From the NCBI GenBank assembly GCA_016278515.1, contig JADQBR010000060.1, forward strand, positions 1 through 64,000: a stretch of 64,000 nt of DNA, written 5' to 3'. The position numbers were made by a program, and so were the translations under genes. Shown here piece after piece: positions 27,909 to 39,714 of this stretch (position 1 is the first letter of the stretch; each line of letters begins with the position of its first letter). The notes beneath the pieces were generated by a model, which ran no database searches, was not told the DNA's origin, and saw only the letters and a list, made by a program, of their open reading frames with translations. The stretch comes from Bacillota bacterium (GTDB lineage: Bacteria > Bacillota > JADQBR01).

Positions 27909-27965
27909 CTATTTCCGCTCTATCAACGTAACTGTCTCAACGTGTGTTGTTCGTGAAAAAATATC
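27909..27965 (-). pseudogene. Probable 3' tail of an rlmD-like 23S rRNA methyltransferase gene
   Basis: In a frame different from the integrase, 18 codons read DIFSRTTHVETVTLIERK and stop at 27909. This resembles the C-terminal end of RlmD/TrmA-family uracil methyltransferases (the DxFPxTxHVExVxLL pattern). No upstream part of such a gene is present. It looks like a fragment fused to the truncated recombinase gene. The match is from memory of the family and short, so moderate confidence. Confidence 0.5.
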
Positions 27966-28549
27966 CTTAGCAAAATCCTACTTTCATTAAAACTAATATT
28001 GTTAATTAGAAGGTTGAGGCATTCTGAAATCCTCATACCTGTATCGGCAAGGACCAACATAACACAATAATCCCTATAACCTGCAAAAGTAGATTTATCT
28101 GGTTGATTTATTAGCAGCTTTAACTGCTCATTAGTAAAAGGTTTAATGGGTTTTTTATCTGTCTTTACTTTTTTAATTTTACTCATAGGGCTTTCTTCAA
28201 TAATCCCTTGATTGACTACATAATTAAAAAACGGTTTAAGGTTAGCAATATGTGTATTAATCGTGACCTGGCTGACTTTTCTTGCAATCCGTAAATAAAA
28301 TAAGTAGCTCTTTATATCTTCTTCCATTATTTCATCCACCAGTAAACTATGGCCGTTTGACTCCAAAAACGTTTTTAAAAGAGTAAGATATAGAGCATAT
28401 CCATCAACAGTTATTGGCTTTAAATTTCTTTCCACACAATTAACAATAAAGTTATCTATCTGTGTCTGTATTGAGTTCGGGTTAGTTATCTTGCGGGTCT
28501 TTCGCTTTGCACCTGCAATAATTTCCCGTTTTCTTACCATTTTAACCAC
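27923..28549 (-). pseudogene. Truncated tyrosine recombinase (integrase)
   Basis: The 208-residue frame has the N-terminal SAM-like core-binding domain (about 25-115, TVDGYALYLTLLKTFL) and the start of the catalytic domain, with the first catalytic arginine at about 173 in LADTGMRISECLNL. The family-like sequence ends at about residue 195 (ESRILLR). The remaining residues are unrelated and the HxxR and tyrosine motifs are missing, so roughly 100 residues are gone. The protein cannot be an active recombinase. It lies just inside the direct repeat next to tRNA-Leu, with its gene starting toward the tRNA, the usual position for an island integrase. Confidence 0.85.
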
Positions 28550-28709: not shown

Positions 28710-28796
<87 letters not shown>

Positions 28797-30212: not shown

Positions 30213-32201
30213 TTAATAATCCTCGTCCTCCTCTTGCCAGCGCAGCACTACATCGTCCTCGTCTTTAAGGACTGTGGTAAATTGGGCCTTCTGGCCATTC
30301 ACCAGCATTAGCAACTTGCTGGATGAAGTCGGGGGACTTGGGTTAAAATCAATATAATTAAACATGTCAGTAAGAATGGCATGTGGCTTTCGAATCTCCA
30401 TGGGTTGTTGGTTTACCGTTAGGTGCGTACTGACATCGGACGTGGCATTTTGTGCCGGGGGAACAGTAGAGGAATTTCTTAGTTCTAGATCATCTCCTGA
30501 CTTAATTGGTGAACCAATTGTTCCCACTGTACCGTTAACATATATGTCTTTTCCAGCGCTATCGACATCTAGCCAGTGAAATGTTTCTCCAGCATTACTA
30601 GGCATTTTTGCCTTAATCTCAGACATGTCAGGAATTTTTACATCCCCCTGAACAGCTAACCCGTTTAGTAAAACCTTGGGTTTAATAGTCCTTTTTTCGC
30701 CGTTAACAATTAGGTGCAGCGATGGACAAGTTTCATTAATTAACACATCCATAGTAGTTTCCGCATCCTTACCCTTTTCTCCTGGCACAATTTTAACCTG
30801 ATAACCGTCTTGTACTGAAGTCTCAAGGGTAGCAACCTCTCCGTTTACTAATAATTTGGCAGCTGTCCCCAATGACCCCTTGATAAAATGTATTTTGCCG
30901 TTTACAGTCACCGATAATCCTAAGCCGGGCTTCCCGTATAACAACCTGATATTAATTCCGGCTGCCAGCAGGGCATCCGCTACAGTACCGTGTCCATTGG
31001 CGCTGATTAAACGCACTGGTCTGTTGTTAACCTTTATACTGGAAAACTCCAATGCTCTATTATGTTTCCAGGAAACTGCGATGCCTATTGGCGTTACAGC
31101 TTGTGGTCCAAAAAGAATATCCTCTTCTCCCTTAATAGTTAAAGCTTCACGCCCCCGGACTGCCACTCGCTGTTGAGGCAAGGACAGTTTGGCCGCCAAT
31201 GCTTTGGTTAAAAGGGGTGTCTGGCTTCCCCCACCAATAGCAATAACTGCTTGAGGGGCTTTTCCATTTAGTTGAAAAATGCTGTCCGCAATTTTATTAG
31301 CTAATTCCGTAACCGCCGGCTGCACTGCTTCAATTATCTCATCCACCTTAACCTCATGCTCCATACCTACCACATCCATAAACCGCACGGTTTTTTCCTC
31401 GCCGCTAAGCTGTCTCTTAACTTTTTCCCCTTCATCAAAATCAAGTAGATAGATGTCACACAGCACCTCTGTTATCTTATCGCCTGCACTGGGAACCATG
31501 GCATAGCCAGCAACAGTATCCTCTTTGGTTATAGCTATATCTGAGGTACCGGCTCCGATATCCACCAGAGCTAAGTTCAGACGACGCAGGTTAGCAGGAA
31601 CAATAACGTTAATTGCTGCAATAGGCTCCAATGTTAAACTGGACAGTTCCAAGCCAGCTCTTTTCAGGGCGGTAACCAAAGAATCAACTACCACTCTCGG
31701 TAAAAACGTAGCAATGATATCCACTCCGATACTATTACCATATTGTCCGGTCAAATTGCTAATCGGTTGGTTATCCAAGGTGTGCCTGACAACGCTGTAG
31801 CCAACGCAATGGTAATCTGATATGCGTTGTTCGGTTTCAACCAAGTTACTTTGGGCTGCTTGTACTGCTTCAATTTCTGCCGCCAATATCATTTGCTCAT
31901 CAATTTCTTCCAAAGGGTTATGCTCTTTGTTTGTACTGCCTTTGGCAGTCTTCAGCGCACGACCGGCAGCTGCTACGGCAACTGATTTTAATTGCAACCC
32001 GGTCTTTCTCTCTAGTGCCTCTTTCACCTTGATTACTAAGTCTGCTACTTGCGGCACGTCGTGAATCTGACCGTCTAGCATACTTCTATTGGGGTGTTCA
32101 GCAACTTCAGCCGCTATTACTTGCGGCTGCTCTGTCAAATCAAGGACCAAGCCCACCACGGTACGCGTTCCTATATCTAATGCAAACACCTTTTCTCTCA
32201 T
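30213..32201 (-). CDS. FtsA/PilM-like actin-fold ATPase with extended C-terminus
   Basis: This 662-residue protein has an actin-like ATPase fold: phosphate-1 motif FALDIGTRTVVGLVLD at the N-terminus, phosphate-2 motif LALVDIGAGTSDIAIT near 210, and adenosine motif AVIAIGGGSQTPLL near 320. An SHS2-type insertion (about 85-165) supports kinship with FtsA. After about residue 370 a long extra region contains repeated VNG-centred beta segments (VNGKIHFIKG, VNGEVATLE, VNGEKRTI, VNGTVGTIG). FtsA is 400-450 residues, so the tail adds some 250. Known FtsA tethers FtsZ to the membrane, but no C-terminal amphipathic helix is obvious here. The role in division is therefore uncertain. Confidence 0.8.
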   Translation of the reverse strand: MREKVFALDIGTRTVVGLVLDLTEQPQVIAAEVAEHPNRSMLDGQIHDVPQVADLVIKVKEALERKTGLQLKSVAVAAAGRALKTAKGSTNKEHNPLEEIDEQMILAAEIEAVQAAQSNLVETEQRISDYHCVGYSVVRHTLDNQPISNLTGQYGNSIGVDIIATFLPRVVVDSLVTALKRAGLELSSLTLEPIAAINVIVPANLRRLNLALVDIGAGTSDIAITKEDTVAGYAMVPSAGDKITEVLCDIYLLDFDEGEKVKRQLSGEEKTVRFMDVVGMEHEVKVDEIIEAVQPAVTELANKIADSIFQLNGKAPQAVIAIGGGSQTPLLTKALAAKLSLPQQRVAVRGREALTIKGEEDILFGPQAVTPIGIAVSWKHNRALEFSSIKVNNRPVRLISANGHGTVADALLAAGINIRLLYGKPGLGLSVTVNGKIHFIKGSLGTAAKLLVNGEVATLETSVQDGYQVKIVPGEKGKDAETTMDVLINETCPSLHLIVNGEKRTIKPKVLLNGLAVQGDVKIPDMSEIKAKMPSNAGETFHWLDVDSAGKDIYVNGTVGTIGSPIKSGDDLELRNSSTVPPAQNATSDVSTHLTVNQQPMEIRKPHAILTDMFNYIDFNPSPPTSSSKLLMLVNGQKAQFTTVLKDEDDVVLRWQEEDEDY

Positions 32202-32277
32202 TGTCCAACTCTCCTCTTATAGCACCTTTGTCGTCAATATTCGACCTCCGCCAGCATATTCCTGCTGTTTTTTGTCA

Positions 32278-33434: not shown

Positions 33435-33760
33435 ATCTTCAAGGAGGTCTTTGAAGAAGTGAGTGTGTATCTATTGTTACCCTTCCTTTCAAGTATTAAA
33501 CTACTTCATTAAATATTTTTTTACATAATACGATTCCATAATAACATCTCAGCAAAGGCTCCCCCCATCCTTTAGATCTATTTGAATAACTAGGTGGCAG
33601 CAGATATTGCATGTTCCTTTAAAGTTAGACTCTAAGACAAGGTAATATTATCTACTATTGTAAATATGCACCAAGGAAATAACCCCAATTGCTCCAGTCC
33701 TTAGGATATGAGGATTCTCTTGAGACGAAAATTGCCGATTTAATGAAAAAATATATTATT
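33435..33760. other. Intergenic upstream of the first multiheme cytochrome
   Basis: About 325 AT-rich bases with no credible coding frame. The promoter of the cytochrome gene should lie here or just after, but no box pair is close enough to consensus to be assigned. Confidence 0.4.
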
Positions 33761-33860
33761 AAAAATCAATTTTAGGGAGGAATAATTTACATCTTGTCTA
33801 ATATTGTACTTGTGAACACTTTCTTGTTATTATTTACTATTTGAGGGAAAGGAGGTGACT
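33761..33860 (+). promoter_or_regulatory. Conserved cytochrome leader, copy 1
   Basis: This region aligns with 35626-35729 ahead of the second cytochrome. Shared, in order, are TTAAAAATMA, a GGAGG (33776-33780), TCTAAT, the invariant TGTGAACACTTTCTT (33811-33825), and GAAAGG-GGTG just before the gene. Thirteen bases after GGAGG a 16-codon frame starts (TTG 33794, MSNIVLVNTFLLLFTI). The invariant CACTTTC can also pair with GAAAGGAGGTG, the downstream ribosome binding site. It may be a leader peptide, a translational switch, or both. Confidence 0.5.
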
Positions 33861-33916
33861 ATATGCCAAATACAAGAAAGATGCCAGCAACAAAATTCCC
33901 TGGGGAGGGCTTATTC

Positions 33917-35326
33917 ATGAAAAGAAAACTTTTAGTTCTTACGTTAACCATGTTATTCGTAGTCATATTTGCCGGAAGTGCAATGGCGTTTCCTAGTATG
34001 AGCACCGACGGTACTTGTGCGTCTTGTCATACTGACGGTCGTACCGGTGATGCGCCTGCAGAAGAGCCAGCTGAAAAACCAGCAGCACCGGCTCCAGCAA
34101 AAACATCTTCAGATGGTATCAACCAAACCGTTAAGTTTGCATACGGTGACAAAACTGTTGAGCTTGAAGCAGTTAACAAAAGCGGCCATTTAAATGTAAA
34201 AGCTGCTGACCTTAACAGTTTGTTAGGAACAAACGTAAGCGGTGATTTGGTACCGGTTCGTAGTAAAGCTACGGATTTAGGATTTAAGGTACATTTTGAA
34301 AATGGTACTGTCTACCTTTCTGGTGCAGCACCAGCTACAGCTAAACCGGCACCTGCTCCGGCAGCTTCCGGTATGAGCGCATTTGATGTGGTTGGAGAAA
34401 TTACTGAAGAATGGTTAGAGGCAGGTCACGCAAATGTGAGTAGGCCTTTATCCTATGCAGGAATCAGAGGTAGTCGATGTGCACCTTGTCACTCAGGTAA
34501 TAGTTTAGAGAGAATCGGTACTGCAGACCCATATACGGCTGAAGGAATTGAATCAGGTGAAGCGCATGGTACGTTTATAGTTAATGGTAATGAAGCTGAA
34601 CTACCTAGCCCAATCGGCTGCGCTACCTGTCACGCTAGTACAGGTGGAGAGATTCTTGAATCCGGCGTTGTACCAGCGGCAGAATTAGGGTTAGGGGCAT
34701 TTGGCGAAAAAGATTTTAATGTTGGAAATTCTAACGCTTTATGCTTCACTTGCCACAACGCTAGAAGAGATGTAGATCATATGTATGAGCTCTATACAGA
34801 GGGAATGGAAGAAAACGACACCGAATATCCACATCATGGTTGGAGTTCTCTAGCTACTGGTCAGGGTGGAATAGAGTATCCTGGTGTAAGCTACCCACAG
34901 TCTGGGACACACGCTGAGCTTGGATGTGTTGGATGTCATATGGACGAAACTGAAGACGGCTATGTATCCCATACCTTTGAACCAAACGTTGCTACTTGCC
35001 AGAGTTGCCATACTACCGCAGCTGACTTTGAAATTGGTACCTTAAAGGCCGAGCTTGAAGAAAAACTTGCAACACTTGAAGAGCTTGTACTGGCCAATAT
35101 CCCGGGTGCAGTTGAAATTGGTGCATCCCATGGATCAACGCCTGCATTTGATGCTGATGGCGAGGCAGTTTATTCCGCAGATATTCCTGCTGAGGCATTG
35201 ATAGGCGCTTATAACTGGGCGATTATTTCGCAGGAATTAGAAGACGGTGCAGGTGGTGCACATAATCCAAAATATGCTGAGGCTCTATTAGACGAATCTA
35301 TTAAGAAACTTGAAGCTTTAAAGTAA
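33917..35326 (+). CDS. Secreted hexaheme c-type cytochrome with copper-amine-oxidase-N-like domain
   Basis: An exported cytochrome of about 469 residues. After a signal peptide (KRKLLVLTLTM to AMA) comes FPSMSTDGTCASCHTDGRTG with the first heme motif, a Pro/Ala/Glu linker, then a domain of about 70 residues (GINQTVKFAYGDKTVEL onward) like the copper-amine-oxidase N-terminal-like module. Five more CXXCH motifs follow: CAPCH, CATCH, CFTCH, CVGCH and CQSCH, giving six hemes. The C-terminus carries DGAGGAHNPKYAEALLD, the helix pattern of the c554/NrfA-type cytochromes. Two starts are possible. ATG 33917 (GGGGAGGG upstream) gives a normal signal peptide; ATG 33863 has a perfect AAAGGAGGTGA and adds 18 residues. 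It probably takes part in extracellular electron transfer. Confidence 0.88.
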   Translation: MKRKLLVLTLTMLFVVIFAGSAMAFPSMSTDGTCASCHTDGRTGDAPAEEPAEKPAAPAPAKTSSDGINQTVKFAYGDKTVELEAVNKSGHLNVKAADLNSLLGTNVSGDLVPVRSKATDLGFKVHFENGTVYLSGAAPATAKPAPAPAASGMSAFDVVGEITEEWLEAGHANVSRPLSYAGIRGSRCAPCHSGNSLERIGTADPYTAEGIESGEAHGTFIVNGNEAELPSPIGCATCHASTGGEILESGVVPAAELGLGAFGEKDFNVGNSNALCFTCHNARRDVDHMYELYTEGMEENDTEYPHHGWSSLATGQGGIEYPGVSYPQSGTHAELGCVGCHMDETEDGYVSHTFEPNVATCQSCHTTAADFEIGTLKAELEEKLATLEELVLANIPGAVEIGASHGSTPAFDADGEAVYSADIPAEALIGAYNWAIISQELEDGAGGAHNPKYAEALLDESIKKLEALK

Positions 35327-35403
35327 AATTATATGTAAATGCTAACACAAGCAAAAGCGATTTGTTAACATGTAAAATTTGCTCTAAGTTTACTTAAGAG
35401 CAC

Positions 35404-35444
35404 AAAGCCCGTGTAAGGCAATAGCCTGTACACGGGCTTTTTTT
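35404..35444 (+). terminator. Terminator after the first cytochrome gene
   Basis: AAAGCCCGTGTA and TACACGGGCTTT pair perfectly (12 bp) around a 13-base loop and end in a run of seven Ts. Confidence 0.92.
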
Positions 35445-35625
35445 ATTGTTCCCGGCATGATCCCACTAATGTAAGATATTGCTTCTCAGCCTGATAAACA
35501 ACTTCCTCATCAATTGTCCATTATCTTTGACCAAATGTTTTTCTCCACAAGCAAATTTTTGTCAATCTTAAGAAAGAGTTCTTAGATAATGAATTTTAGT
35601 CTGCCTAGTTTAAAAAATATTACTT
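35445..35625. other. Intergenic, no feature identified
   Basis: AT-rich sequence between the terminator and the second cytochrome leader. A loose inverted repeat CTTAAGAA/TTCTTAG near 35568-35586 is the only structure noted. Confidence 0.3.
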
Positions 35626-35729
35626 AAAAATAACAATTGCTAGGAGGAAATATTACCCATATGTCTAATTTAATACATGTGAACACTTTCTTATTAAGTA
35701 ATTACCTACATTGGAAAGGGGGTGTTTGA
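35626..35729 (+). promoter_or_regulatory. Conserved cytochrome leader, copy 2
   Basis: This is the second copy of the leader at 33761-33860. GGAGG (35643-35647) precedes, again by 13 bases, ATG 35661 of a 22-codon frame (MSNLIHVNTFLLSNYLHWKG and two more residues). Its TGA (35727-35729) directly abuts an ATG at 35730 in frame with the cytochrome. TGTGAACACTTTCTT is unchanged from copy 1, and GGAAAGGGGGTG follows. Nucleotide identity is highest in the 15-base block, so the RNA or DNA element may matter more than the peptide. Confidence 0.5.
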
Positions 35730-35780
35730 ATGGTAAAATCGAGAAAGAGTTCTGTTATTCAAATGGGGGAGGGCAATTTA

Positions 35781-37658
35781 ATGAACAAAAAGGTATTAGT
35801 ATTAACTCTATCTGTATTTTTCGTAATGCTTTTTTCGGGAGTGGCTATGGCACTTCCAAGCATGAGTGCAGACGGTGTTACCTGTACTCCTTGTCATACT
35901 GACGGTCGTACAGGCGACGCACCTGCAGAAGAACCAGCTCCGGCTGAACCGGCTGCACCTGCAGAAGAGCCAGCTCTAGCTGAAGAGGCTGCTCCAGCTA
36001 CAAAATCTTCAGATGGTATCAAGCAAACCCGTAAGTTTGCATACGGCGACAAAGTTGTTACAATTGACGCAGTCAACAAAGATGGCCATTTATATGTTAA
36101 TGCTGCTGATTTTAACAGCCTAGTAGGCGCTAACGCAACCGGCGACTTGGTACCGTTCCGTGAAACTGCCGGCGATTTAGGCTACACGATTGAGTATAAG
36201 GCCGGTACTGTATACATTTACGGTGGTTCAGCAGATGCTGCTGGAGTAAATGTAGGATTAAGTCCTGCATATGCATTAGAAGGTTATGTAGGATCCGATA
36301 CTTGTCTTAATTGCCATGCTGATAAGAAAGAATGGATGACTACTGATCATTCTACCATGGCGCAAAACATGGATGATCCTAATGCGTTTATCATGGCCGA
36401 TTTCAGGACCAACACTTTCTTTGAGAAAGAAGACGCTTTATATGCAATTGCACAAGGCAAGCGCTTTGTTGGTTTAAGAGAGGGCAAATTACAGTATCTC
36501 AACGCAACTTGGAATCCTGAAGCGGGTGTCTGGGAAGAAGGTAGTTTCCGCGATTATTCCTGTGCCGGATGCCATAACACTGGCTTTAATGAAGAAACCG
36601 GTGCCTGGGCTGAAACAGGTGTTGGCTGTGAAGCATGTCACGGCGCTGGCGAAGCACATGCAACTTCTGCAGATCCCAGTAAAATTTCCGTTAGCCTTGA
36701 TGTAGATTCCTGTCAGCCATGCCACGATGAAGGAAGCCATACTCAAGTAACTGAATTGATGGCAGATGCTGAAGCGGAAGCTGCTGATGACGCCGCTGTT
36801 ATGAGCCATCTAAATGTCCTTAAGGACAGCAAGACTGCTGAAGGCGGACATTACGGAGACTCCTGTATTCAGTGTCACTCCGCAGAATACCGTCTAGCTT
36901 ATGAAGAAGCTATAGCAGATGGTGAAACTCCGGAAGAGGCTATCGAAGGATTACCAACTGCTGAAGAAATTCTTGCAGGCGACAGAATTGGTATTACGTG
37001 CGTAGTATGCCACGATCCCCACACCAAGACCGGTAACATTTTCCAATTGAAGGATCCTGTTACTCCGGTTTATGTAGTGGAAGAAGGTTTGGACGAAGAA
37101 GCTTGGTTTGAAGGCTTTGAAATGCCTAGCAAGCTTTGTGTAAGCTGTCACACTGCAGAGCATGCTCTTCCAGAACATGCTGCTAAAGGCGAATCTCCGC
37201 ATCACCCACAAAGAGAATGGTTTGTTGGTAAGGTACCTGGTATAGAATCAGCGGTTCCGGCTCCTAACAGTCATGAATGTGCGACCTGCCATATGCCGAA
37301 CGGCAACCATGCTTTTGAAACGGGTCAACCCATTTATACCTACGACTCTCATGGTCATGAGGTAAACATGGACGTTTGCGGCAGCTGCCATGCTGATAAT
37401 GATCTGACAGCTGAAAAGATTGAACAGATTAAGGCTGATACTCAAACTGCTATTGAAGAGTTAACAGCTAGTTACAGCCAATACGCTGATGTTATTGATG
37501 CAGCTAGTGAAGAAGCACAACAATTGTACAACGATAACATGTACAACATTAAGTTGCTTGACGGCGAAGGCAGCTATGGTATCCATAACAACGAATTGAC
37601 TGAAGATATCATTAAAAAAGCCGAAGCTGATCTAGTTACATTGGAAGGTTTACTGTAG
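35781..37658 (+). CDS. Secreted decaheme c-type cytochrome with copper-amine-oxidase-N-like domain
   Basis: A product of about 625 residues with a signal peptide (NKKVLVLTLSVFFVML to AMA) and the same N-terminal module as its neighbour: LPSMSADGVTCTPCHTDGRTG, a Pro/Ala/Glu linker and the GIKQTRKFAYGDK domain. The main body starts GYVGSDTCLNCHADKKEW, a c554-like pattern. Heme motifs in order are CTPCH, CLNCH, CAGCH, CEACH, CQPCH, CIQCH, CVVCH, CVSCH, CATCH and CGSCH: ten. It ends with DGEGSYGIHNNELTEDII. ATG 35781 (GGGGGAGGG upstream) gives a normal signal peptide; ATG 35730 adds 17 residues. It is a close paralogue of the cytochrome at 37906. Redox partners are not shown by the sequence. Confidence 0.9.
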   Translation: MNKKVLVLTLSVFFVMLFSGVAMALPSMSADGVTCTPCHTDGRTGDAPAEEPAPAEPAAPAEEPALAEEAAPATKSSDGIKQTRKFAYGDKVVTIDAVNKDGHLYVNAADFNSLVGANATGDLVPFRETAGDLGYTIEYKAGTVYIYGGSADAAGVNVGLSPAYALEGYVGSDTCLNCHADKKEWMTTDHSTMAQNMDDPNAFIMADFRTNTFFEKEDALYAIAQGKRFVGLREGKLQYLNATWNPEAGVWEEGSFRDYSCAGCHNTGFNEETGAWAETGVGCEACHGAGEAHATSADPSKISVSLDVDSCQPCHDEGSHTQVTELMADAEAEAADDAAVMSHLNVLKDSKTAEGGHYGDSCIQCHSAEYRLAYEEAIADGETPEEAIEGLPTAEEILAGDRIGITCVVCHDPHTKTGNIFQLKDPVTPVYVVEEGLDEEAWFEGFEMPSKLCVSCHTAEHALPEHAAKGESPHHPQREWFVGKVPGIESAVPAPNSHECATCHMPNGNHAFETGQPIYTYDSHGHEVNMDVCGSCHADNDLTAEKIEQIKADTQTAIEELTASYSQYADVIDAASEEAQQLYNDNMYNIKLLDGEGSYGIHNNELTEDIIKKAEADLVTLEGLL

Positions 37659-37694
37659 CAACTAGAAAAAAATAAATATTAACGCTACGAGCAG

Positions 37695-37745
37695 AAAGCC
37701 CGCGAGGCAAGTTGCCATACTTGACGCTACTTCGCGGGCTTTTTC
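37695..37745 (+). terminator. Terminator after the second cytochrome gene
   Basis: AAAGCCCGCGA and TCGCGGGCTTT (11 bp, perfect) enclose a 26-base loop with its own small pairing, followed by TTTT. Confidence 0.88.
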
Positions 37746-37905
37746 TATGTCTTTAAATTGCCCTCCCCCATTTGGTAATTTAAAGATTTTAATCTTGCTG
37801 TAGCAGTGCATTAACATTGTGCTGCCAGCATATTCTTTTACGAAAGGAGGTGAACTAGGAATTAGTTCTTCAGTTATCATGATAAAATATAGGAGGTTAT
37901 TAACA

Positions 37906-39714
37906 GTGAGAAAAATTTTAGTTGTATCCCTGGCACTTTTAGCAGTAATGCTATTTGCCTCCGCTGCGCTTGCGTTTCCAAGCATGAGCCCAGACGGCGT
38001 AACGTGCCAAACTTCAAGCTGCCACGTTGATGCCGCTCCTCCCGGAGCACCCGCTGAAGCACCTGAACCGGCCAAGGAAGAAGCAGCCGTAGCAGAGAAA
38101 CCTGCAGCTAAAGCTACTTCAGGCATTAAACAAACAGTTAAAGTAGCCTATGGCAGTAAAACAGTTGAATTACAAGCTGTTAACAAAAGCGGTCATCTCT
38201 ATGTAAGCGCGTCCGATTTTAATGGTTTATTCGGCGCTAACGTTTCCGGTGACGAGGTAGCTTTGAGAAAAAACGCTGAGGAAATGGGACTTAAAGTCCA
38301 GTACAAAAATGGCGTAATTAACGTTTTTGGTTCCTCGGAAGCTACAGAATCTACGGGACCTGCAACAGCAGCTTCCAACATAGTAGCGGGTCTTAATCCT
38401 TCAGCAGCTTTACCGGGTTATGTTGGATCCGATACTTGTGGCAAATGTCATCCTGGCACTCAAGAAAGCTGGATGTCCACAGACCATGCCACCATGGTCC
38501 AGAGCATGGACAATCCCGATGCTTACATGGTATCTAACTTTCAGACCAACAAATGGTTTGACAAAGACGATGTTCTTTACACCGTAGCCCAAGGCCAGCG
38601 TTTCTTGAAGGTTAACGATGGTGTATTGCAATACGCTGAAGCTCAGTGGGATCCGGAAGCCGGTATTTGGACAGAAAGAGAACCTAGTGATTATACATGC
38701 GGTTCCTGCCACAACACTGGTTTCAATGAAGAGACCGGCGCATGGGCTGAAAATGGTATCACTTGTGAATCTTGTCATGGACCAGGTCAAGAGCATGCTG
38801 CAACTGGCGATGCTTCCAAGATTGTTTCTAACGTAGGAATGGATATGTGCTCCAGTTGTCACGGCGAAGACAGACAATCCGGTCAAATGAAGGAAATGTG
38901 GATGGCAGAAGAAAATGGCGGCCACTTAGGCTTATTTGCCAATGAAATCGGTGCAGACCCAAATGAACCCGGTTATCATTATGGCGACGGCTGTTTAGGC
39001 TGCCACTCCGGTACTTATATTGTTGCTGAGAAGAAAGGCGAGACTCCGCCTAGCTATGACGATTTCATGAATGGCGACTTTCAAAGTGATCGATACGGCA
39101 TTACCTGTGTAGTATGTCATGATCCGCACGCTAAAACCGGTAACGAATATCAGCTGCGTGAAGATGTAAATACTACCTGCGTTCAGTGCCACACCAACTC
39201 CGGTGGCGTTCCTGAAAGAGGCGGTACCGTACACCACCCACAAAGACTGGTATGGGACGGCGTCCTCTTTAACGGCGAAAGCGAAGAACCTGTATTAATG
39301 GGTAACCCCAAGGCAGATATTAAGTGTGTTGACTGCCATATGACCGACGGCAACCACTTCTTCGAGCCTGGTACTCCGGCTATCACACTGTACAGCCACG
39401 GCAATCCATATGAGGCCGACAGTTGCGGTAGTTGTCACAGCGATATGACTGCTGAAGACATTGGGAATTGGCAGGGAGAATATGAAGAACAAGTAGAAGT
39501 TTTAAGCGCTCGCTTAGTAGAACTTCAAGCAAAAGCAGATGCAAATGCCGGCGACGCCGCTGCAGCAGCTCTACCATACTTAGAAGCTGCTACTTCTAAC
39601 CTATCCATTGCTGAACATGACGGCAGTATGGGTATCCATAACGTTCTCTATGCAGAAGAAGTATTTGAGCAAGTTACTTCAGATCTTGATAAAGCTGAAG
39701 AGTTATTGCCCTAG
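37906..39714 (+). CDS. Secreted multiheme (nine CXXCH plus one CX4CH) cytochrome with copper-amine-oxidase-N-like domain
   Basis: This product of about 602 residues is the third paralogue. The signal peptide (RKILVVSLALLAVML to ALA) leads to FPSMSPDGVTCQTSSCHVDA, where the first heme site is CX4CH rather than CXXCH. After the linker and the GIKQTVKVAYGSK domain, nine CXXCH motifs follow: CGKCH, CGSCH, CESCH, CSSCH, CLGCH, CVVCH, CVQCH, CVDCH and CGSCH. The C-terminus reads DGSMGIHNVLYAEE. GTG 37906 is chosen because AGGAGG lies eight bases upstream. It lacks the conserved leader of the other two but keeps a GAAAGGAGGTGA upstream with no usable start after it. Confidence 0.9.
   Translation: MRKILVVSLALLAVMLFASAALAFPSMSPDGVTCQTSSCHVDAAPPGAPAEAPEPAKEEAAVAEKPAAKATSGIKQTVKVAYGSKTVELQAVNKSGHLYVSASDFNGLFGANVSGDEVALRKNAEEMGLKVQYKNGVINVFGSSEATESTGPATAASNIVAGLNPSAALPGYVGSDTCGKCHPGTQESWMSTDHATMVQSMDNPDAYMVSNFQTNKWFDKDDVLYTVAQGQRFLKVNDGVLQYAEAQWDPEAGIWTEREPSDYTCGSCHNTGFNEETGAWAENGITCESCHGPGQEHAATGDASKIVSNVGMDMCSSCHGEDRQSGQMKEMWMAEENGGHLGLFANEIGADPNEPGYHYGDGCLGCHSGTYIVAEKKGETPPSYDDFMNGDFQSDRYGITCVVCHDPHAKTGNEYQLREDVNTTCVQCHTNSGGVPERGGTVHHPQRLVWDGVLFNGESEEPVLMGNPKADIKCVDCHMTDGNHFFEPGTPAITLYSHGNPYEADSCGSCHSDMTAEDIGNWQGEYEEQVEVLSARLVELQAKADANAGDAAAAALPYLEAATSNLSIAEHDGSMGIHNVLYAEEVFEQVTSDLDKAEELLP

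Follow-up and report, generated by a model that had tools for sequence, protein, structure and literature searches.

The stretch shared by the regions upstream of two multiheme cytochrome genes, cyt1 and cyt2, is, judging from its sequence, probably a gene-start module, composed of a promoter and tandem in-frame ribosome-binding sites, rather than a leader-peptide gene. The elements, their conservation, their in-frame arrangement and their enrichment before multiheme cytochromes are computational observations. The two genes lie in the window analysed here (the whole 64,000-nucleotide stretch of contig JADQBR010000060.1), where they occupy positions 33863-39714 together with a third gene, cyt3; the products of all three are exported multiheme cytochromes (Pfam Cytochrome_C7, MtrC/MtrF-like domain). 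An Rfam search of the window at gathering score returned three tRNAs only and no leader RNA family.

Both leaders contain two Shine-Dalgarno sequences (Table 1), of which SD1 is a near-full complement of the 16S tail and SD2 lies about 8 bases upstream of the signal-peptide starts. The two start codons of each gene (33863/33917 and 35730/35781) are in frame, with no stop between them and with a Shine-Dalgarno sequence each, as in the layout of proteoform pairs, and the first start adds a basic N-extension of 17-18 residues ahead of the signal-peptide start. An earlier note on this DNA had taken a GAAAGG-GGTG element, which we find as GAAAGGAGGTG at 33847 and GAAAGGGGGTG at 35714, to be the ribosome-binding site of the cytochromes; it is indeed a strong Shine-Dalgarno sequence, but the first of two and not the one immediately before the signal peptide. 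The same note had observed, correctly, that in the second copy the stop of the leader frame adjoins ATG 35730, which is in the cytochrome frame. Its broader suggestion, that cytochrome synthesis is under translational control, stays plausible, although by way of a choice between two in-frame starts that it had not seen.

In such a module, a sigmaH-like promoter (RnAGGAwWW, 11 bases, GTCTAATww) would start an mRNA with a short leader, the first ~38 bases of which would hold the conserved block, followed by the near-perfect SD1 with its in-frame ATG and, 17-18 codons on, by SD2 and the signal-peptide start. Ribosomes entering at SD1 would produce a long precursor, in which the basic N-extension precedes the signal peptide, and those entering at SD2 a short one with the signal peptide only, while pairing of the block with SD1 would hide start 1 and favour start 2, thus potentially acting as a switch. 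Some first starts lie 11-14 bases from SD1, beyond the ideal distance. What the long form is for can only be guessed at: it might be exported more slowly or differently, or be loaded with haem in another way.

Table 1 Features of the cytochrome genes and their leaders (positions in the window)
Feature	Positions	Strand	Remarks
sigmaH-like promoter (putative), cyt1	33776..33804	+	GGAGGAATA - 11 - GTCTAATAT; 14/15 against consensus; motif and spacing recur in other genera
Candidate uORF 1 of the earlier note	33794..33844	+	TTG, 16 codons, LSNIVLVNTFLLLFTI, then stop; judged not to be a gene
Block of cyt1, TGTGAACACTTTCTT	33811..33825	+	at putative mRNA 5' end; 33817-33825 can pair with 33849-33857
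SD1 of cyt1, GAAAGGAGGTGA	33847..33858	+	dG -21.4 to 16S tail
In-frame N-extension of cyt1, MPNTRKMPATKFPGEGLF	33863..33916	+	start 1 is ATG 33863
SD2 of cyt1, GGGGAGGGC	33902..33910	+	precedes start 2, ATG 33917
cyt1, short form	33917..35326	+	begins at signal peptide MKRKLLVLTLTMLFVVIFAGSAMA
sigmaH-like promoter (putative), cyt2	35643..35671	+	GGAGGAAAT - 11 - GTCTAATTT; 14/15
Candidate uORF 2 of the earlier note	35661..35729	+	ATG, 22 codons, MSNLIHVNTFLLSNYLHWKGGV, then stop; judged not to be a gene
Block of cyt2, TGTGAACACTTTCTT	35678..35692	+	12-pair stem with SD1; SD1-masking P=0.01, fold z -2.2
SD1 of cyt2, GAAAGGGGGTGT	35714..35725	+	dG -19.0 to 16S tail
In-frame N-extension of cyt2, MVKSRKSSVIQMGEGNL	35730..35780	+	start 1 is ATG 35730
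SD2 of cyt2, GGGGGAGGGC	35765..35774	+	precedes start 2, ATG 35781
cyt2, short form	35781..37658	+	from MNKKVLVLTLSVFFVMLFSGVAMA
Hairpin, loop CUCCCCCAUUU	37750..37786	+	14 pairs; 3' of cyt2 terminator, before cyt3
SD1 of cyt3, GAAAGGAGGTGA	37842..37853	+	no in-frame ATG/GTG/TTG at usable distance
cyt3	37906..39714	+	own SD2 (TAGGAGG 37890), start GTG 37906

The shared block that the earlier note had described is present in both leaders, as was its proposed CACTTTC partner for the ribosome-binding site. This pairing is possible and exceeds chance in the second copy, but it is weak in the first and is not conserved elsewhere: when the first 38 bases of the mRNA were shuffled, the masking of SD1 was equalled in 10% of cases for cyt1 (P=0.10) and in 1% for cyt2 (P=0.01). 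The cyt1 pairing joins CACUUUCUU (33817-33825) to AAGGAGGUG (33849-33857), AAGGRGGUG, through nine pairs, and the stem predicted for cyt2 is longer. With the full leader the masking in cyt1 is lost, and the block prefers ACAAGAAAG within the extension; AGAAAGA, which is conserved in both extensions, is a second possible partner of the block. A two-state RNA switch, in which the block pairs either with SD1 or with AGAAAGA, is thus conceivable on the basis of these complementarities. Masking of SD1 was seen for cyt2 and, weakly, for cyt1 and G141, but in no other leader examined; where it forms, the hairpin possibly tunes the choice of start.

For the block, as distinct from the rest of the module, a real if lesser possibility is that it acts at the DNA level, as an operator around the transcription start through which cyt1 and cyt2 would be repressed, a reading compatible with the use of two starts. 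The block lies at about +1 and half-resembles the Rex site TTGTGAA-N4-TTCACAA or a CRP-type TGTGA-N6-TCACA, its conservation reaches into TGTGAA, which is unneeded for the pairing with SD1 in cyt1, and redox control would fit cytochromes. The match is nevertheless to one half-site only, CACTTTCTT suits SD1 as an anti-Shine-Dalgarno sequence, and the 12 genomic matches with two mismatches look like chance when set against a control. As a repeated genomic operator the block was rejected, since the exact sequence occurs at two places only in the genome, the cyt1 and cyt2 leaders.

The case for two starts is carried further by their recurrence in other genomes. Among 14 cytochromes of the cyt1/cyt2 type, collected by protein similarity, 10 have a very strong SD1 (dG -15 to -21.5) located 62-74 bases before the signal-peptide start, the strongest upstream Shine-Dalgarno sequence among ~57 other genes having a dG of -12.9. 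SD1 leads to an in-frame start, with extensions of 14-18 residues, in cyt1, cyt2, G002, G112 (three loci), G285 and G076 (two loci). In cyt3 and in the leaders of G043, G107 and G141 it is found without a usable in-frame start, and SD1 may therefore also act without an extension.

In 399 genomes of the phylum, two pattern scans that were blind to the protein and demanded GGAGG at SD2 found the two-start layout at 13 distinct cytochrome loci, spread over six families, and before one type IV pilin gene, so that CxxCH cytochromes account for nearly all cases. Two-start cytochromes with a hydrophobic signal after start 2 come from G000, G002, G285, G112, G076, G013 and G097, and further ones from G131, G260, G236 (where the contig stops a few codons in, the leader being the same as in G260), G186, G059, G279 and G284. 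Most have 6-22 CxxCH motifs and one has a single motif; Pfam confirmed a multiheme cytochrome for the five loci read, and the pilin too. The pilin gene (L148, in G019) has two in-frame starts, and no other non-cytochrome gene shows the full layout. Beyond the haem motifs, the G260 cytochrome does not truly resemble cyt1 or cyt2, yet it is related to that of G279, so that the layout occurs in no fewer than two unrelated cytochrome families.

These comparisons bear on whether SD1 might merely be a site for ribosome docking or mRNA stabilisation, no extended protein being made and translation proceeding from SD2, which we consider rather unlikely. A Shine-Dalgarno-like stabiliser of this kind is already known: STAB-SD, of the Bacillus thuringiensis cry mRNA (cry3A). 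SD1 lies near the putative 5' end in cyt1, cyt2 and G002, and is retained without an in-frame start in some cytochromes. Docking, however, would need no reading frame, and at 13 of the 14 two-SD cytochrome loci of the scans SD1 has a start, 14-20 codons upstream, that is in frame with no stop in between. In-frame first starts stand at 13:1 in cytochromes versus 1:8 in other secreted genes with two Shine-Dalgarno sequences (Fisher 1.6e-4), a comparison in which the frame classes were set post hoc and which includes several closely orthologous f12 loci. Changes of a coding type also argue against docking alone: in the G013-type family, the extensions differ at 24 sites, distributed over the codon positions as 7/4/13 (a weak third-position bias), the first codon is ATG, TTG or GTG only, and the G186 extension differs by one whole-codon insertion (a comparison counted by hand). 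In G112 and G285, moreover, SD1 lies ~100-165 bases from the promoter.

Some side observations stand on their own. The G013-type cytochrome leaders (L169 at about 232-301, L172, L164, L211 and L197) contain a hairpin, for example TTAAGTGGTTTTTCCACTTAA, with apparent compensatory changes (fold z -2.2 for the L169 leader), and mostly TCACC, an anti-Shine-Dalgarno sequence, directly before SD1; L211 also has an Rfam match to TwoAYGGAY RNA at 480-638 (G059 locus, 49.1 bits). A second copy of the cyt1 C-terminal domain, 82% identical, lies between transposase-like fragments in L030 (4249-5442, G000:C109), with a lipoprotein-type start and without the two-start leader. In the window, a tyrosine-recombinase-like ORF lies beside a tRNA gene (27923-28549 and 28713-28796, minus strand), an arrangement that resembles, by eye, the edge of an integrated element.

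When the cyt1 and cyt2 leaders are compared at their fixed offset of 1867 bases, identity amounts to 47/131, close to background, in the far-upstream region, 20/29 in the promoter-like motif, 18/20 in the block region, 2/15 in the next 15 bases and 11/14 in the Shine-Dalgarno region. By column shuffling, a 15-base identical run within a 40-base stretch has a probability of P=0.00035, and together with the drop from block to flank this means that the block is truly constrained or unusually preserved. Its restriction to two paralogues would suit a functionless relic of the duplication behind cyt1 and cyt2, but the near-complete divergence of the adjacent 15 bases makes this improbable.

The sigmaH consensus against which the promoter-like motif was scored is that of B. 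subtilis, with RnAGGAwWW at -35 and RnnGAATww at -10; the same strings are likewise present in PMC8510167. The leaders of cyt1, cyt2, G002, G043 and G112 each score 14/15 against it, with spacers of 11, 11, 12, 11 and 11, that is, within the 11-12 of sigmaH, and the -35 consensus is matched by both window copies (GGAGGAATA, GGAGGAAAT) as well as by those of the other three genomes. The motif reads GCAGGAAAT-12-GTCTAATTA in G002, GCAGGAAAT-11-GTTTAATAT in G043, GCAGGAATA-11-GTTAAATAT in G112 and GCAGGAAAA-11-GTTTAAATA in G285, the last copy having been spotted by eye beyond the stretch scanned; across 17 cytochrome leaders, Fisher's combination gives 6e-6. The -10 element departs from the consensus by one position (GTCTAAT/GTTTAAT/GTTAAAT), T or A occupying the position of the sigmaH G in six leaders, and for this reason we call the promoter sigmaH-like rather than a member of the class and consider a site for another sigma factor or a regulator possible. 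A canonical GTCGAAT promoter, GCAGGAATA-11-GTCGAATAT, precedes the gene at 30213-32201 (32238-32263, minus strand), and genome-wide 10/11 matches to GTCGAATA have the expected spacing. Another cytochrome family, of lipoproteins (G000:C33:4060-4085 (L111), L082 and L084), has an AGGATTR-11-GTCG-type motif before the start, which is conserved in all three genomes examined of this class.

Among the upstream regions of other cytochrome genes, which the earlier note had proposed to compare, those of G002, G043, G112 and G285 keep the promoter-like motif. The block was not found in 100 relatives and is absent from the G002 orthologue. The latter, from the sole record in a scan of named genomes (Thermoanaerobacteraceae bacterium GB_MAG15_131), is syntenic, adjoining hemL, and has AGGAAATATT and TGTCTAATT. 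This bears directly on the central proposal of that note, in which a translated MSNxxxVNTFLL leader would, through its translation and the pairing of CACTTTC with the ribosome-binding site, control translation of the cytochrome. The sequence features on which it was built are present: GGAGG at 33776-33780 and 35643-35647 is followed after 13 bases by TTG 33794 and ATG 35661, VNTFLL is common to the two open frames, and the block can pair with SD1. The shared peptide, however, is no better conserved than the DNA beneath it, SN corresponding to the -10 box and VNTFLL to the block in one reading frame, and the G002 orthologue retains GTCTAAT without VNTFLL. The start codon sits on the -10 element, ~15 bases upstream of the putative transcription start, and reads TTG, ATG, CTG, ACG, ACG and GCG when aligned in six leaders across genera, such that the conserved start codon and frame of a regulatory uORF are missing. 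The GGAGG coincides with the -35 element of the sigmaH-like motif, GGAGGAAWW-11-GTCTAATWW, and its 13 bases are far for a Shine-Dalgarno sequence, for which a leader peptide would have 5-9; the openness of the frame downstream of the -10 is the same as in shuffled sequence (P=0.18). We consequently reject the uORF as a coding gene, and regard the leader-peptide model as very improbable.

Start 2 of cyt2 has a potential partner of its own. Positions 37753-37774, in the hairpin between cyt2 and cyt3, are an exact 22-nt complement of 35760-35781 in the SD2 region of cyt2, with a predicted duplex of -39.0 kcal/mol versus -11.7 for the 16S tail, and the 12-base core TGGGGGAGGGCA occurs exactly only in these two places genome-wide. 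The cyt3 leader (37745-37862) folds better than shuffled sequence (z -4.2), with two hairpins before SD1 and without an Rfam match. The hairpin is a candidate regulator of start 2 of cyt2, which would act as an antisense RNA or from the 3'-UTR; a DNA inversion switch, in which flipping the 22-base inverted repeat would place the cyt2 promoter before a terminator, was also considered, but the hairpin form favours RNA. Some 200 bases before the cyt1 promoter, a further element (33549-33578) has CTCCCCCCAT between AAAGG and CCTTT, like the C-rich loop before cyt3, and its fold is no better than chance.

In its most extended form, which we put forward as doubtful, the module of promoter and tandem starts would be dedicated to multiheme c-type cytochromes across the phylum, kept or re-evolved, with long and short precursors differing in export or haem loading; here, the 5' block would mask start 1 and the C-rich hairpin RNA between cyt2 and cyt3 would mask start 2. 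Multiheme cytochromes pass electrons to outside acceptors, and the control of their amount and export in bacteria of the Gram-positive type is poorly known. If each gene does give two precursors, the starts and signal peptides now annotated for many such proteins would be half the story, and a control point would be common to several bacterial families.

A search of the open-access literature returned no described two-start cytochrome system, which does not prove that none exists, but individual parts resemble known ones. The promoter shares with the sigmaH (Spo0H) promoters of Firmicutes the RnAGGAwWW -35, the spacing of 11-12, the position of the -10 and the flanking W bases, and differs in having T or A for the G of GAAT. 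Like the STAB-SD of cry3A, SD1 is a GAAAGGAGG-type element upstream of the main ribosome-binding site and near the 5' end, yet SD1 usually has an in-frame start after it. Anti-Shine-Dalgarno hairpins, leader-peptide attenuators and uORF motifs, such as that of odc1 (PMC8632094), likewise allow an upstream anti-Shine-Dalgarno sequence to mask a ribosome-binding site; the cytochrome leaders differ in that they have no credible leader peptide and that the pairing is confined to two paralogues. The hairpin behind cyt2 recalls the pairing between 3'UTR and 5'UTR of icaR (PMC3868564), where a C-rich stretch 3' of the gene complements its Shine-Dalgarno sequence, although for cyt2 the complement spans 22 nt and lies beyond the terminator, within the leader region of cyt3. 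Closest to the layout as a whole are the N-terminal proteoform pairs, for example the Salmonella set (PMC11005335), in which two in-frame starts per gene give longer and shorter forms, some with changed export signals. The cytochrome layout differs from these in having a Shine-Dalgarno sequence for each start and the signal peptide in both forms, and in recurring, across families, in one functional class, the multiheme cytochromes.
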